Positions 6,595 through 10,465 of a stretch of 26,564 nucleotides of DNA are shown piece after piece (position 1 is the stretch's first letter; the number at the start of each line of letters is the position of its first letter). Below the pieces are notes generated by a model. The model was not told the DNA's origin. It saw only the letters and a list, made by a program, of their open reading frames with translations, and did no database searches. Source of the DNA: a virus; IMG/VR virus record IMGVR_UViG_3300005859_000008, positions 1 through 26,564 of that record; one strand, 5' to 3'. Position numbers and translations under genes: made by a program.

Positions 6595-7116
6595 ATGTAT
6601 ATAGTTTTACGGGAATTGGATAAAGAAAAATTTAGGAAAAATATCATTACATGGTTAGACGGTGATGATGTTATTGAAAGTTGTTTTACTGATTTTAAAT
6701 ATGTTGTTACAGAAACAGTAATCCAAATGATTTCTGAAGTTGTAGAAAAAGATGATTGGAATTTACAATATTTTAACGAAAAGGAATCAGAAAGATTATT
6801 TAAGGCATTTATGGAAAATTCTAAAATTACGATTAGATTAATTAAACAGATTGATGAAGTAAATTATGTATTTGATGAAATTATTGTTGAATTTGATTTT
6901 TCGGAAATTGAGAAAAAAGAAATTGTGGAAATATATCTAGATAATATACTTAATGAATGTCAATATTTAGAAAGATGTATATTTGATAGTTTAGAAGAAT
7001 TAAATATAGATTTAATAACAGAACTTCTTAGTGACCAAATTTATCAATTTTTAAGTCCTGAGGAAATAAAGAAGAAATTTAAAGATAAAATAGAGAAAAT
7101 TGTAAATAATAAATAA
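6595..7116 (+). CDS. Acidic protein, tandem paralog A (173 aa)
   Basis: It is mostly helical and strongly acidic, with no Gly-rich loops or catalytic motif that I recognise. It is clearly related to the next gene at 7204. Shared landmarks in order are ESCFTDFK/ESCYTNFK, a W-x-LQY/W-KLKY motif, F-AFM-NS, IVEFDFSE/VVKLDFAE, EIYLDNIL/ETYIDTLL, YLERCIFD/YLDICLFI and the near-identical end LSPEEIKKKFKDKIE. This indicates a local gene duplication. The strong negative charge would suit a DNA mimic, or a protein that sequesters host factors or CRISPR effectors; that is inference. It has its own promoter. Confidence 0.8.
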   Translation: MYIVLRELDKEKFRKNIITWLDGDDVIESCFTDFKYVVTETVIQMISEVVEKDDWNLQYFNEKESERLFKAFMENSKITIRLIKQIDEVNYVFDEIIVEFDFSEIEKKEIVEIYLDNILNECQYLERCIFDSLEELNIDLITELLSDQIYQFLSPEEIKKKFKDKIEKIVNNK

Positions 7117-7170: not shown

Positions 7171-7203
7171 ATAAAGGATAAATTGATTCGGGGAAACAAA
7201 AAA

Positions 7204-7773
7204 ATGTCAGGTCAAGTTGAAAAAATAGTTTTAAATAAATTAGATAAATTTGAACTAAGTGAAAATATTGAAGAAAGTTTAAGAGAGGATAACATATCGG
7301 AAAGTTGTTATACGAATTTCAAAGATGCTTTAGCCGATACAATAATTCAAAATGTTTCTGAAATGACAAAAAAAGATTTTTGGAAATTGAAATATTCTGT
7401 GAAAAATATTGAAGAAAAGATATTTGATGCATTTATGAAAAATTCAGAATTCAAGATTTCGATAAAAGAAAAAGATAATAAATTAAATGAAATTGTTGTT
7501 AAATTAGATTTCGCAGAAAATGAGAAAAAGCGAATTGCAGAAACATATATAGATACATTGTTAGAAGGTTATTATTACTTAGATATATGTCTTTTTATTG
7601 AGATAGAAGAAGAAGTAAATGTAGATACAATTTCTAAGATCTTAAGTAATGAGGTTTATGGTCTGTTAAGTCCTGAAGAAATAAAGAATGAATTTAAAGA
7701 TAAAATAGAGGAAGCTATTAAGATTGTTTTTGACTATGATACTGATTATGATGGTGATGATGAAGAAGAATGA
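7204..7773 (+). CDS. Acidic protein, tandem paralog B (189 aa)
   Basis: Paralog of the 173-aa protein at 6595, with the same block order and the same LSPEEIK-FKDKIE ending. It differs by a very acidic tail (DYDTDYDGDDEEE). The ATG at 7204 is chosen over an upstream TTG at 7183 because the TTG falls in the leader, and GGGG lies ten bases before the ATG, as in other early genes. Each copy has its own TATA-GTC promoter, so the two can be expressed independently. The DDEEE tail is reminiscent of DNA-mimic or chaperone-like tails. The function is unknown. Confidence 0.8.
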   Translation: MSGQVEKIVLNKLDKFELSENIEESLREDNISESCYTNFKDALADTIIQNVSEMTKKDFWKLKYSVKNIEEKIFDAFMKNSEFKISIKEKDNKLNEIVVKLDFAENEKKRIAETYIDTLLEGYYYLDICLFIEIEEEVNVDTISKILSNEVYGLLSPEEIKNEFKDKIEEAIKIVFDYDTDYDGDDEEE

Positions 7774-7790
7774 TGTGAAAATATGAATTT

Positions 7791-8726
7791 CTATATCTCA
7801 AGTTCTAATTCATCTTTTTCTTTCTTTATCTTTTTCTTTTCCTTTAAAATTTCATTTACAATTTTGTAATTTCTAATTAATTCAATTGTAAGGCTGTCAA
7901 GACCTATCTTTCTTAATTTGTTAGCATATCTTGTGTATTTATTGTCAATTTGCCATTTATTGTATACTAGAATATAAGCGTTCATAACTTCTAGAATTTT
8001 TCTGTTAGTCAAATCATATTCAAATGGAAAATGAATCTTGTCTAAAAATTCAAAAAGTTGTTCTTTTTCTTCTTCCGTAATTTTATACCTTTCTCTACTT
8101 GTTTTTTGATTTCCTACATATTTTCTTGTTCCATCAAACCAAAAAATCTCTCTATATGCCATAGTTTTGGAATATGTAGCTGTGTCCATACTATCCGCAA
8201 AATCGAAAGCTTGTAGAAAATATGGTGCAGACATTCCAAGGACATGTAGATAAGGGACTTTCCTTCTTACATAATAAACCCATGGAAATGTATAGATTAA
8301 AACTTTTAATTTGCTAGATGCTACAAGTCCTCCTATTGCAAAATAGTAAGTATATTGTTTGTAAAAATCTATAGCTTCATCTACATCTTGAATTGGATAG
8401 ATATGGATAACTGGAATAATTTTTTCTATCCATTCTATTTTTGTATACAAGTATTCAAAATATTGAAAATTTCGTTTGTCTAGAGGAGAAAACATACTTG
8501 CAATATCAAGAGAAAAAAAAGCATATGCATCTAATTTTTTGTATTTTTCTAGAATGTCTTTCACAGAAATATGTAGACCATATAATGCAATTTGGTAACC
8601 TCCGCTATCTATCCAAGTCTCATTTTTCCATGTCTTTTTTCTAAATCTTAACTGATTAATTAGAATCGGAAAGTCAGTCTTCAGAATATATGATGTTGTT
8701 GAACTTAGACCAAAGACAAGTTTCAT
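7791..8726 (-). CDS. TGT/DpdA-like base-exchange enzyme (311 aa)
   Basis: Motifs of the tRNA-guanine transglycosylase superfamily are present: DSGGYQ at residues 40-45 (catalytic DSGG[FY]Q), IGGLV at 131-135 (base-binding), HVLG at 161-164, and D-S-M-D-T-A-T-Y at 178-185, which matches the DSFDS-type segment holding the nucleophilic Asp. These enzymes swap guanine for a 7-deazaguanine base in tRNA, or in DNA for the DpdA branch. The C-x-C-x2-C...H zinc site of standard TGTs is not seen after residue 185; the C-terminal part is helical and charged. It is therefore either a divergent, zinc-free DpdA-like enzyme or one with an altered target. The start overlaps the permease stop (TAATG), indicating coupled translation. 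TGT-like genes have been annotated in some other archaeal filamentous viruses, as I recall. Confidence 0.8.
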   Translation of the reverse strand: MKLVFGLSSTTSYILKTDFPILINQLRFRKKTWKNETWIDSGGYQIALYGLHISVKDILEKYKKLDAYAFFSLDIASMFSPLDKRNFQYFEYLYTKIEWIEKIIPVIHIYPIQDVDEAIDFYKQYTYYFAIGGLVASSKLKVLIYTFPWVYYVRRKVPYLHVLGMSAPYFLQAFDFADSMDTATYSKTMAYREIFWFDGTRKYVGNQKTSRERYKITEEEKEQLFEFLDKIHFPFEYDLTNRKILEVMNAYILVYNKWQIDNKYTRYANKLRKIGLDSLTIELIRNYKIVNEILKEKKKIKKEKDELELEI

Positions 8727-9919
8727 TATTGTTCTCCATTAATCACCTTCTTTCTTAAGACGTATATAATTCCTCCAATTAAAGGCAATAGTAATATTCT
8801 TAATATTGTATATATTAGATTTCCTTCTATTACGAAATTATAGAATATTGGGTTTTGAAGTCCTAGATAAAAGAATATAAATATCTGTAGTGCTAAACTT
8901 ATTATTACACTTAAAAATAATAATTTATTATTTGTTAATTTTAAAAATGTTAAACTTACAATTAAGAAATTCCAGAAAATGAACAATATACCAGTAAATC
9001 CAAATGAAATTGAAAATCCTAAAAGATTTTCTAAAACGTTAGCGATTGTATCAACAGTAAAGATTAACAATAAAATGTTAGGCGTAAGTTTTGTAAATTT
9101 TTCTGGGAGAATTCTATCAAATGTAAAGTTTTGAATTAAACGACTTTGAATTATAGCATTCACAAAAAGATAGCTTAGATACCAGATTGGAAATAAAGCA
9201 AACAATATATTCAAATTAGAAAAGCTATCTAATATTGATAATATTGTAACTACTAAATAACTTCCAAAATATCCAATTTTTATTGCTTTATTTACGTTCT
9301 TTACTTCTCCAGCTATATAACTAATTGCATTTATGAATAGAAACATAGACAAGTCAAATAGTAAGGCTGAAAGTAAGGTATTCGATATTGTGAAGTTTTG
9401 TATCTGGAAATGAAAATTTGAGACTGGGAGAAATATTGATACAAGTATCTGTAGAATAGCTAATCCGTCTACTATATAAGCATAAATTGATTTTCTAATT
9501 ATACTAATTATAGTTATTATAAATAATAATTCTGAAATTAGAAATTTATCAATTAGTGAAATATTAAAATTCATAAGTACTAAATTTGTTAGGACTGGAG
9601 CTGAGAATATATACGTTAGCCATAACGAGATTCCGAAAATTGTGTAGAATTTCGGGGAAAATGTATTTCTAATGTAAGCATAATCCCCACCGTTTAATGG
9701 AATTTTCTTGGTTAGAATATAATACATTACTAATAATGGAATTTCAAATATTGCTCCTAATATTACAGCAATTAACAAGTTTACATTTTTCATCATTTGA
9801 GAGACAAAAATTGGATAACTTATTCCGCTCAAAATTCCCATGTAAAGAAGATTGATAGAAAAAATATCTAATGAATTGAAATTTTTTATAATTCCTGAAC
9901 TTTGTCTTTTGAATTCCAT
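8726..9919 (-). CDS. APC-superfamily amino-acid permease-like membrane protein (397 aa)
   Basis: About 11-12 hydrophobic segments span the whole length. Diagnostic APC features are visible: P-NGGDYAYIRN-FSP at residues 74-89 (the P-GG-Y-Y---P motif after TM2), INAISYIAGEVKNVNKAI at 196-213 (the GE-KNP--I motif near TM6), and SRLIQNFTFDRILPEKFTKLTP at 259-280 (the SR-----DR-LP--F motif). It would act in the host membrane, importing an amino acid or another small cation or base. Such a transporter is unusual for a 30-kb-class archaeal virus and was probably taken from a host. It is the first gene of a two-gene operon with the TGT-like enzyme, which suggests it might import that enzyme's substrate; this is speculative. 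Length is slightly below typical (430-500 aa). Confidence 0.85.
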   Translation of the reverse strand: MEFKRQSSGIIKNFNSLDIFSINLLYMGILSGISYPIFVSQMMKNVNLLIAVILGAIFEIPLLVMYYILTKKIPLNGGDYAYIRNTFSPKFYTIFGISLWLTYIFSAPVLTNLVLMNFNISLIDKFLISELLFIITIISIIRKSIYAYIVDGLAILQILVSIFLPVSNFHFQIQNFTISNTLLSALLFDLSMFLFINAISYIAGEVKNVNKAIKIGYFGSYLVVTILSILDSFSNLNILFALFPIWYLSYLFVNAIIQSRLIQNFTFDRILPEKFTKLTPNILLLIFTVDTIANVLENLLGFSISFGFTGILFIFWNFLIVSLTFLKLTNNKLLFLSVIISLALQIFIFFYLGLQNPIFYNFVIEGNLIYTILRILLLPLIGGIIYVLRKKVINGEQ

Positions 9920-9938
9920 ATCTCAGTTCAAGTTTTAT

Positions 9939-9952
9939 GACTAATTTAAGCC
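9939..9952 (-). promoter_or_regulatory. TATA-GTC promoter of the permease/TGT operon
   Basis: The minus strand reads GGCTTAAATTAGTC. The ATG at 9919 lies about 20 bases beyond the GTC. Confidence 0.6.
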
Positions 9953-10039: not shown

Positions 10040-10465
10040 TTAAGAAAGAAATTTTAAAATGTCATTTGTATCTTTTAACAATTCTATTTTTTGTCTGGAA
10101 TAATTTTTCAGATGATAAAGTGCATGTGGAAATTTCGCATTTCCCATTCTATTCATAAATATCATTATTAAAGAATTTTGTTCATATAACATTCTAAACC
10201 AGGAAGGAGTAGGGTCAAATGGTAGATATAATAAAACTTCACTTCCATTTTTATTACTTTCTATAGCTTTTATTATAAATGGTTTTTTAATAGAAAATGG
10301 TGGGTTACAATAAGAATGATTTGGCCATAATTTTTCTACTGCATTGAATTTAGTTTTATCTAAACAAACGTCTATAAATTTTAATTCATTTGTAATAATA
10401 TTATAAACTGCTTCAGGTGTTGGTTTATTGTCATGTATAGCCCTTTTCGGATATTTAAGTGTCAT
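10040..10465 (-). CDS. Phage-type Dam adenine-N6 DNA methyltransferase (141 aa)
   Basis: The order of motifs fits the phage Dam family: an FIDVCLDK start (SAM-binding strand), KLWPNHSYCNPPFS with the catalytic NPPF at about residues 55-58, KPFIIKAIE, then EVLLYLPFDPTPSWFRML and IMIFMNRMGNAKFPH. This is the usual --LLP----WF------I-F--GR--F end of the family. It transfers a methyl group from SAM to adenine in DNA, probably to protect viral DNA or time replication. A related N6-adenine methylase is known from SIRV. The protein is somewhat shorter than phage members (about 160-200 aa). It is monocistronic with its own TATA-GTC promoter, just upstream of the permease/TGT operon on the same strand. 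Confidence 0.85.
   Translation of the reverse strand: MTLKYPKRAIHDNKPTPEAVYNIITNELKFIDVCLDKTKFNAVEKLWPNHSYCNPPFSIKKPFIIKAIESNKNGSEVLLYLPFDPTPSWFRMLYEQNSLIMIFMNRMGNAKFPHALYHLKNYSRQKIELLKDTNDILKFLS

Follow-up and report, generated by a model that had tools for sequence, protein, structure and literature searches.

A transglycosylase-like gene paired with a permease gene in SIRV-like rudiviruses: a possible DNA-marking enzyme with relatives beside a HerA-NurA operon in Sulfolobaceae

Locus and gene pair

The window analyzed here is a virus record of 26,564 bases from a SIRV-like rudivirus, a virus of hot-spring archaea. The 5 kb around a permease/TGT-like gene pair aligned at 77 to 80% to SIRV4-11 and at approximately 71 to 72% to SIRV1-3. 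The features of the locus are as follows.

10040-10465, minus strand: Dam-like methyltransferase gene, 141 amino acids (aa) (PF05869; E value, 1.9e-8)
9935-9950, minus strand: promoter-like element CTTAAATTAGTCATAA, upstream of the permease start ((C/A)TTAAATT(G/A)GTCATAA in most SIRV-like loci)
8726-9919, minus strand: APC-family permease gene, 397 aa, first of the pair (PF13520; E value, 7.9e-6, below the gathering threshold; phrog_8289; E value, 1e-187)
8724-8728, minus strand: TAATG stop/start overlap with shared base 8726 (from the sequence; junction compared over SIRV-like loci)
7791-8726, minus strand: TGT-like (base-exchange) gene, 311 aa (phrog_887; E value, 1e-63; modelled fold)
8607-8609, minus strand: codon of putative catalytic Asp40 (aligned with ArcTGT D95)
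8505-8507, minus strand: codon of putative catalytic Asp74 (invariant residue)
8184-8186, minus strand: codon of putative catalytic Asp181 (aligned with ArcTGT D249)

An earlier note on this DNA had described the two genes as joined by the TAATG overlap behind one promoter; the overlap and a promoter-like element were both confirmed. Permease and TGT-like genes were adjacent in 20/20 SIRV-like loci (window counted; gap, −4 to +8 nucleotides), so their adjacency is not chance; the exact one-base overlap is itself not conserved, being confined to five of these loci (the window, L025, L014, L040, and L042). The element TTAAATT(G/A)GTCATAA lies directly 5′ of the permease start in most SIRV-like loci compared and is missing at that of SIRV1-3. 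A single permease-TGT transcript is likely from the sequence, because the upstream element is shared and the junction is too short in SIRV-like loci to hold a second promoter.

The earlier note had also taken the transporter partner to be undescribed, which was not borne out. The pair is not new, since RefSeq already names both genes in SIRV1-11 ("aminoacid permease" and "queuine tRNA-ribosyltransferase") and a 2019 survey of viral 7-deazaguanine genes counted 12 Ligamenvirales and 2 Bicaudaviridae (PMC6884629). ORF294 of SRV is annotated "putative tRNA-guanine transglycosylase". The SIRV2 genes (gp13-14) were spontaneously lost in SIRV2MII, which propagated like the wild type in a CRISPR-null host, and were stated to be missing from SRV (PMC6315595); contrary to that statement, SRV does encode homologues of both. 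The SIRV2 TGT-like gene lies within terminal accessory genes, 0.6 kb from the acrID1-family gene gp10.

Two tandem phrog_12570 paralogues of the window (6595-7116 and 7183-7773, both plus strand) converge on the TGT-like gene. The Dam-like gene, which the earlier note had placed next to the pair as a second protective function, is real (PF05869) and lies upstream on the same strand, but tblastn found no match to it in the related viral loci examined or in the whole SIRV2 genome. The side-by-side layout is therefore local to the window virus; a conserved Dam-TGT pair was rejected, and the Dam-like gene is probably not part of the permease-TGT unit.

The TGT-like protein

The 311-aa protein, a phrog_887 member, matched no Pfam or NCBIfam family (PF01702 and TIGR00432 cutoffs included). 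A structure model built from an alignment of 21 sequences (pLDDT, 86; pTM, 0.85) has the TIM-barrel fold of the TGT superfamily; its best PDB structural matches were ArcTGT (1J2B/1IQ8; Z, 21.4; 256 residues; RMSD, 3.3), and the remaining best matches were other TGTs. DpdA 7UI4 (titled "DNA-guanine transglycosylase" in the PDB) was not among the 50 structural matches listed for the model, which bears neither way on DpdA. A viral-plus-cellular profile retrieved only two sequences from the PDB, ArcTGT (E value, 0.055) and, second, 7UI4 (E value, 0.38, not significant); hhalign against canonical host ArcTGT gave 95% (E value, 3.7e-8).

Two catalytic aspartates typical of the superfamily are present. 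In the profile alignment, D40 aligns with D95 and D181 with D249 of Pyrococcus horikoshii ArcTGT, the established base and nucleophile of that enzyme, and D40, D74, G132, G133, and D181 are invariant over 24 viral and cellular sequences. The CXCXXC zinc motif after the barrel, found in 29/29 canonical host ArcTGTs, is missing from the window protein and the viral and cellular sequences aligned with it; by this motif and by PF01702/TIGR00432 score, the protein falls outside tRNA-type ArcTGT/TgtA. The DpdA model PF23859 did not match the window protein and gave an E value of 0.25 for a cellular homologue, and direct DpdA membership was rejected. Of the TGT/DpdA-like identity first proposed, the TGT part thus stands, with its fold and aspartates, and a base-exchange role on nucleic acid fits it; the DpdA part fails by the Pfam model. 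Across the class (229 genomes), only one protein matched PF23859, at L150 (genome G157, contig C42).

Pairwise dN/dS values of 0.07 to 0.12 indicate strong purifying selection on the gene. On the modelled fold and the alignments, the protein is best explained as a transglycosylase of the TGT superfamily that has kept its active site and belongs to a Sulfolobales-type lineage separate from canonical tRNA ArcTGT, and the viral enzyme is probably active.

Cellular relatives and the linked operon

Searching 31 Sulfolobaceae genomes (some of them MAGs) with the viral profile identified a single-copy TGT-like homologue in 18, versus only one cellular homologue in a previous peptide-pattern scan of the genome collection. 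Canonical ArcTGT, a separate gene, was found in 29/31 genomes and the preQ0 enzyme QueC in 31/31 (30 strong matches in a 463- to 511-codon frame). All 18 genomes with the TGT-like gene also carry a DUF5591 gene, as does G011, in which it lies beside a 70-aa TGT-like stump (L086) and the KAP gene is absent. No DUF5591 match was obtained for S. acidocaldarius. DUF5591 is a stand-alone protein with the motif PCX3KPYX2SX2H in every copy and an E value of 1e-21 to NCBIfam ArcS.

Nine genomes encode, in the same direction, the TGT-like protein, DUF5591, a HerA (PF01935; here HerA2), a 1012-aa KAP/BrxC-like NTPase, a 229-aa coiled-coil protein, and a NurA (PF09376; here NurA2). The HerA2-KAP-coiled coil-NurA2 operon is present in 18/18 genomes with the TGT-like gene, adjoining TGT-DUF5591 in nine and intact at a different site in the other nine; in G020 and G021, a small protein without a match to the coiled-coil model occupies that position. 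The KAP NTPase occurs in exactly these 18 genomes, in 0 of the other 13 Sulfolobaceae, and nowhere else among the 229 genomes of the class. A TGT homologue, translocase, and nuclease, the gene content of a Dpd-type or BRC-type modification-restriction system, are therefore present together in 18/18 host genomes and form one cluster in nine. HerA2 scored 99 bits against a cutoff of 800 for canonical HerA. PADLOC offered no model for TGT-like, DUF5591, or NurA2, and the open-access literature yielded no paper joining HerA, NurA, and a transglycosylase, although a description elsewhere is possible.

The presence pattern in Sulfolobaceae needs only four changes on the canonical-TGT gene tree, and because these, with two independent pairs on well-supported branches, suffice, the phylogeny-corrected co-occurrence is weak. 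The weight of the host association lies in the linkage and in the intact separate operons. The LacS of G016 was 100% identical to Saccharolobus solfataricus LacS, and those of G014, G015, and G018 were 94 to 95% identical; since all four carry the complete cluster, the genus of the natural hosts has it, and S. islandicus is probably among these genomes.

Lone TGT-like homologues with conserved neighborhoods occur in other crenarchaeal orders (L120 to L139). No HerA, KAP, NurA, or DUF5591 gene was found near them, so defense is not a fixed trait of the family, which also has another role.

In a tree of 47 rows drawn with a midpoint root, rudiviral TGT-like proteins grouped with Sulfolobaceae proteins (100/99), apart from the lone homologues of other orders. 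Those of STSV1 and STSV2 fell inside the Sulfolobaceae clade (~70% identity); rudiviral and cellular proteins share only ~35% identity. A long rudiviral branch, above all that of SRV, and the midpoint root leave the exact rudiviral placement unsure. STSV1, STSV2, and STSV4 carry the TGT-like gene directly followed by DUF5591, a marker pair without the nuclease. Rudiviruses had no DUF5591 in the loci searched and would therefore need the host to carry out any second step.

A possible DNA-marking role

We propose, at a probability just above 0.4, that the viral TGT-like protein is an anti-restriction DNA-marking enzyme, giving viral DNA the self mark of the host. Tentatively, and at less than even odds, HerA2-KAP-coiled coil-NurA2 and TGT-like/ArcS-type writers of 7-deazaguanine (possibly archaeosine) would make up an undescribed self-marking/restriction system of Sulfolobales, with viral writer genes as counter-defense. 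Host TGT-like protein and ArcS-like DUF5591 would introduce a 7-deazaguanine-type mark into DNA, first as preQ0 and then as a derivative. HerA2, the KAP NTPase, the coiled-coil protein, and NurA2 would find and degrade DNA that lacks it. The virus-encoded enzyme would put the same mark on viral DNA during infection, with host-made preQ0 and possibly host DUF5591 supplying the remaining steps; the permease would be a separate accessory gene on the shared transcript.

This proposal builds on the fold, the aspartates, purifying selection, and the existence of cellular homologues that co-occur and are linked with DUF5591 and HerA2-KAP-coiled coil-NurA2. From these we infer catalytic activity, DNA as the substrate, the nature of the mark, HerA2-NurA2 as the restricting part, and a viral anti-restriction function. 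The DNA protection suggested by the earlier note gains from this host neighborhood, with DNA as the presumed substrate and RNA a possible one. Dpd is a bacterial precedent for base-modification restriction, and phages carry methyltransferases for self-protection. By analogy, the combination of a base exchanger, an ArcS-type protein, and an adjacent translocase-NTPase-nuclease operon looks like a base-modification restriction system, and viruses with writer genes and no nuclease resemble methyltransferase-carrying phages.

Counted against the marking proposal are the missing DUF5591 in the rudiviral loci searched, the lone relatives, the few tree changes, the lack of a PADLOC model, the tolerated loss of gp13-14, and the ~35% identity. 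Dispensability of gp13-14 is no refutation, because a marking host would mark viral DNA anyway.

Alternative explanations

The strongest alternative is that RNA is the substrate: the viral enzyme would exchange guanine in host tRNA or D-arm-like RNA, tuning translation or evading RNA-targeting defense, and the Sulfolobaceae TGT-like protein and DUF5591 would be a second archaeosine route for RNA. All close fold relatives among the matches listed act on tRNA, the cellular TGT-like protein weakly matches TgtA (E value, 5e-4), lone relatives in other orders sit in nondefense contexts, and ArcS is a tRNA enzyme that may act on other RNAs (PMC11298593). The TGT-like protein, however, has neither the zinc motif nor space for a PUA part, the hosts already have canonical ArcTGT and QueC, which leaves no obvious need for another enzyme at tRNA G15, and the linked and co-occurring HerA2/KAP/NurA2 genes suggest DNA. 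We consider this explanation rather unlikely.

That the host cluster is instead a recombination/repair unit using a modified base for housekeeping, from which the virus borrowed one enzyme to replicate or process its genome, seems improbable. HerA and NurA work in end resection with Mre11/Rad50 in the literature, and the distribution looks vertical, with few gains and losses; against this, HerA2 is not canonical HerA by its bit score, no Mre11 or Rad50 was found in the operon, and 13/31 genomes lack the KAP gene. Little probability, likewise, is left for a noncatalytic mimic that would bind DUF5591 or the HerA2-KAP complex and block it instead of marking DNA: the lack of a rudiviral DUF5591 gene in the loci searched and the strong divergence from cellular proteins would suit such a mimic, but the catalytic aspartates and base-pocket glycines are the same in every viral and cellular row.

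The earlier note had proposed that the virus imports a modified base or precursor, and the permease does not bear this out. It scored 25.5 bits against the PF13520 gathering threshold of 27, homologous but under the cutoff, and had a weak NCBIfam match to ethanolamine permease. A profile of six rudiviral permeases best matched the amino-acid transporters, mostly cationic, GkApcT, CAT4, and AdiC in the PDB (GkApcT/CAT4 E values, 3e-6 to 7e-6); none of the nucleobase/preQ0 transporter families YhhQ, NCS1, and NCS2 was matched, Pfam reporting AA_permease_2 only. The two genes are also separable: ARV2 and SSRV1 have the permease and no phrog_887 gene among the TGT matches, STSV1/2/4 have the TGT-like gene and no permease match, those of SRV are convergent and not one operon, and those of SBRV1 lie ~5 kb apart on opposite strands. 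Import of a modified base or precursor by the permease for insertion by the TGT-like enzyme is therefore highly improbable despite the conserved adjacency and probable cotranscription in all SIRV-like viruses, and was rejected because of the transporter class, QueC in the hosts, and the separate occurrence and units.

In SSRV1 and ARV2, a phrog_17844 gene (207 aa; L022 5475-6098 and L023 6264-6887) lies 9 nucleotides after the permease. A diverged TGT, suggested by resemblance to the eye, is a possible identity for it; hhalign gave no match, and the single-sequence model reached a pLDDT of only 35.

Significance

SIRV2 and Saccharolobus are among the best-studied archaeal virus-host models, and the TGT-like gene is conserved in the virus. 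If the marking proposal is true, Sulfolobales would use DNA base modification as a restriction barrier, archaeosine chemistry would serve a second purpose beyond tRNA, and a model virus would have one of its counter-defense genes accounted for. The proposal can be tested with existing SIRV2 deletion mutants.

Comparison with known systems

The SIRV1-11 pair (SIRV2 gp14-gp13) is the same two genes in the same order, with TGT-like proteins 66 to 89% identical, and a search of other rudivirus genomes found the pair in all SIRV-like loci compared; differences from the window are confined to junction details and neighbors. ArcTGT/TgtA (1IQ8, 1J2B) shares the TIM barrel over residues 1 to 281, with the DSGxxQ aspartate and the nucleophilic aspartate in register; the window protein differs in its ~14% identity (structural alignment), its length (311 aa versus ~500), its lack of the zinc site, and its scores under the Pfam and NCBIfam cutoffs. 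DpdA (7UI4, PF23859), a bacterial/phage DNA-guanine transglycosylase, has in common with it the TGT superfamily and a proposed DNA role, but the PF23859 match is lacking, as are DpdB/DpdC partners in the host cluster scanned.

The host and STSV DUF5591 protein shows the ArcS motif and a match to positions 261 to 409 of ArcS (NF040592), yet stands alone (180 to 200 aa) and is not a domain of a fused ArcS, and its TGT-like partner, also unlike that case, retains the catalytic Asp residues.

The nearest published architecture is that of BREX-related capture (BRC) systems, which contain HerA and TGT (PMC12839542) and share with the Sulfolobaceae locus a HerA/FtsK translocase, an NTPase, and a TGT in one defense locus. 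The Pfam scan of the L070 cluster proteins found none of PglZ, DUF6079, and DUF4007, and the cluster falls outside BRC; whereas BRC carries PglZ, DUF6079, DUF4007, and GNAT, the Sulfolobaceae locus carries NurA, DUF5591, the KAP-like 1012-aa NTPase, and the coiled-coil protein.
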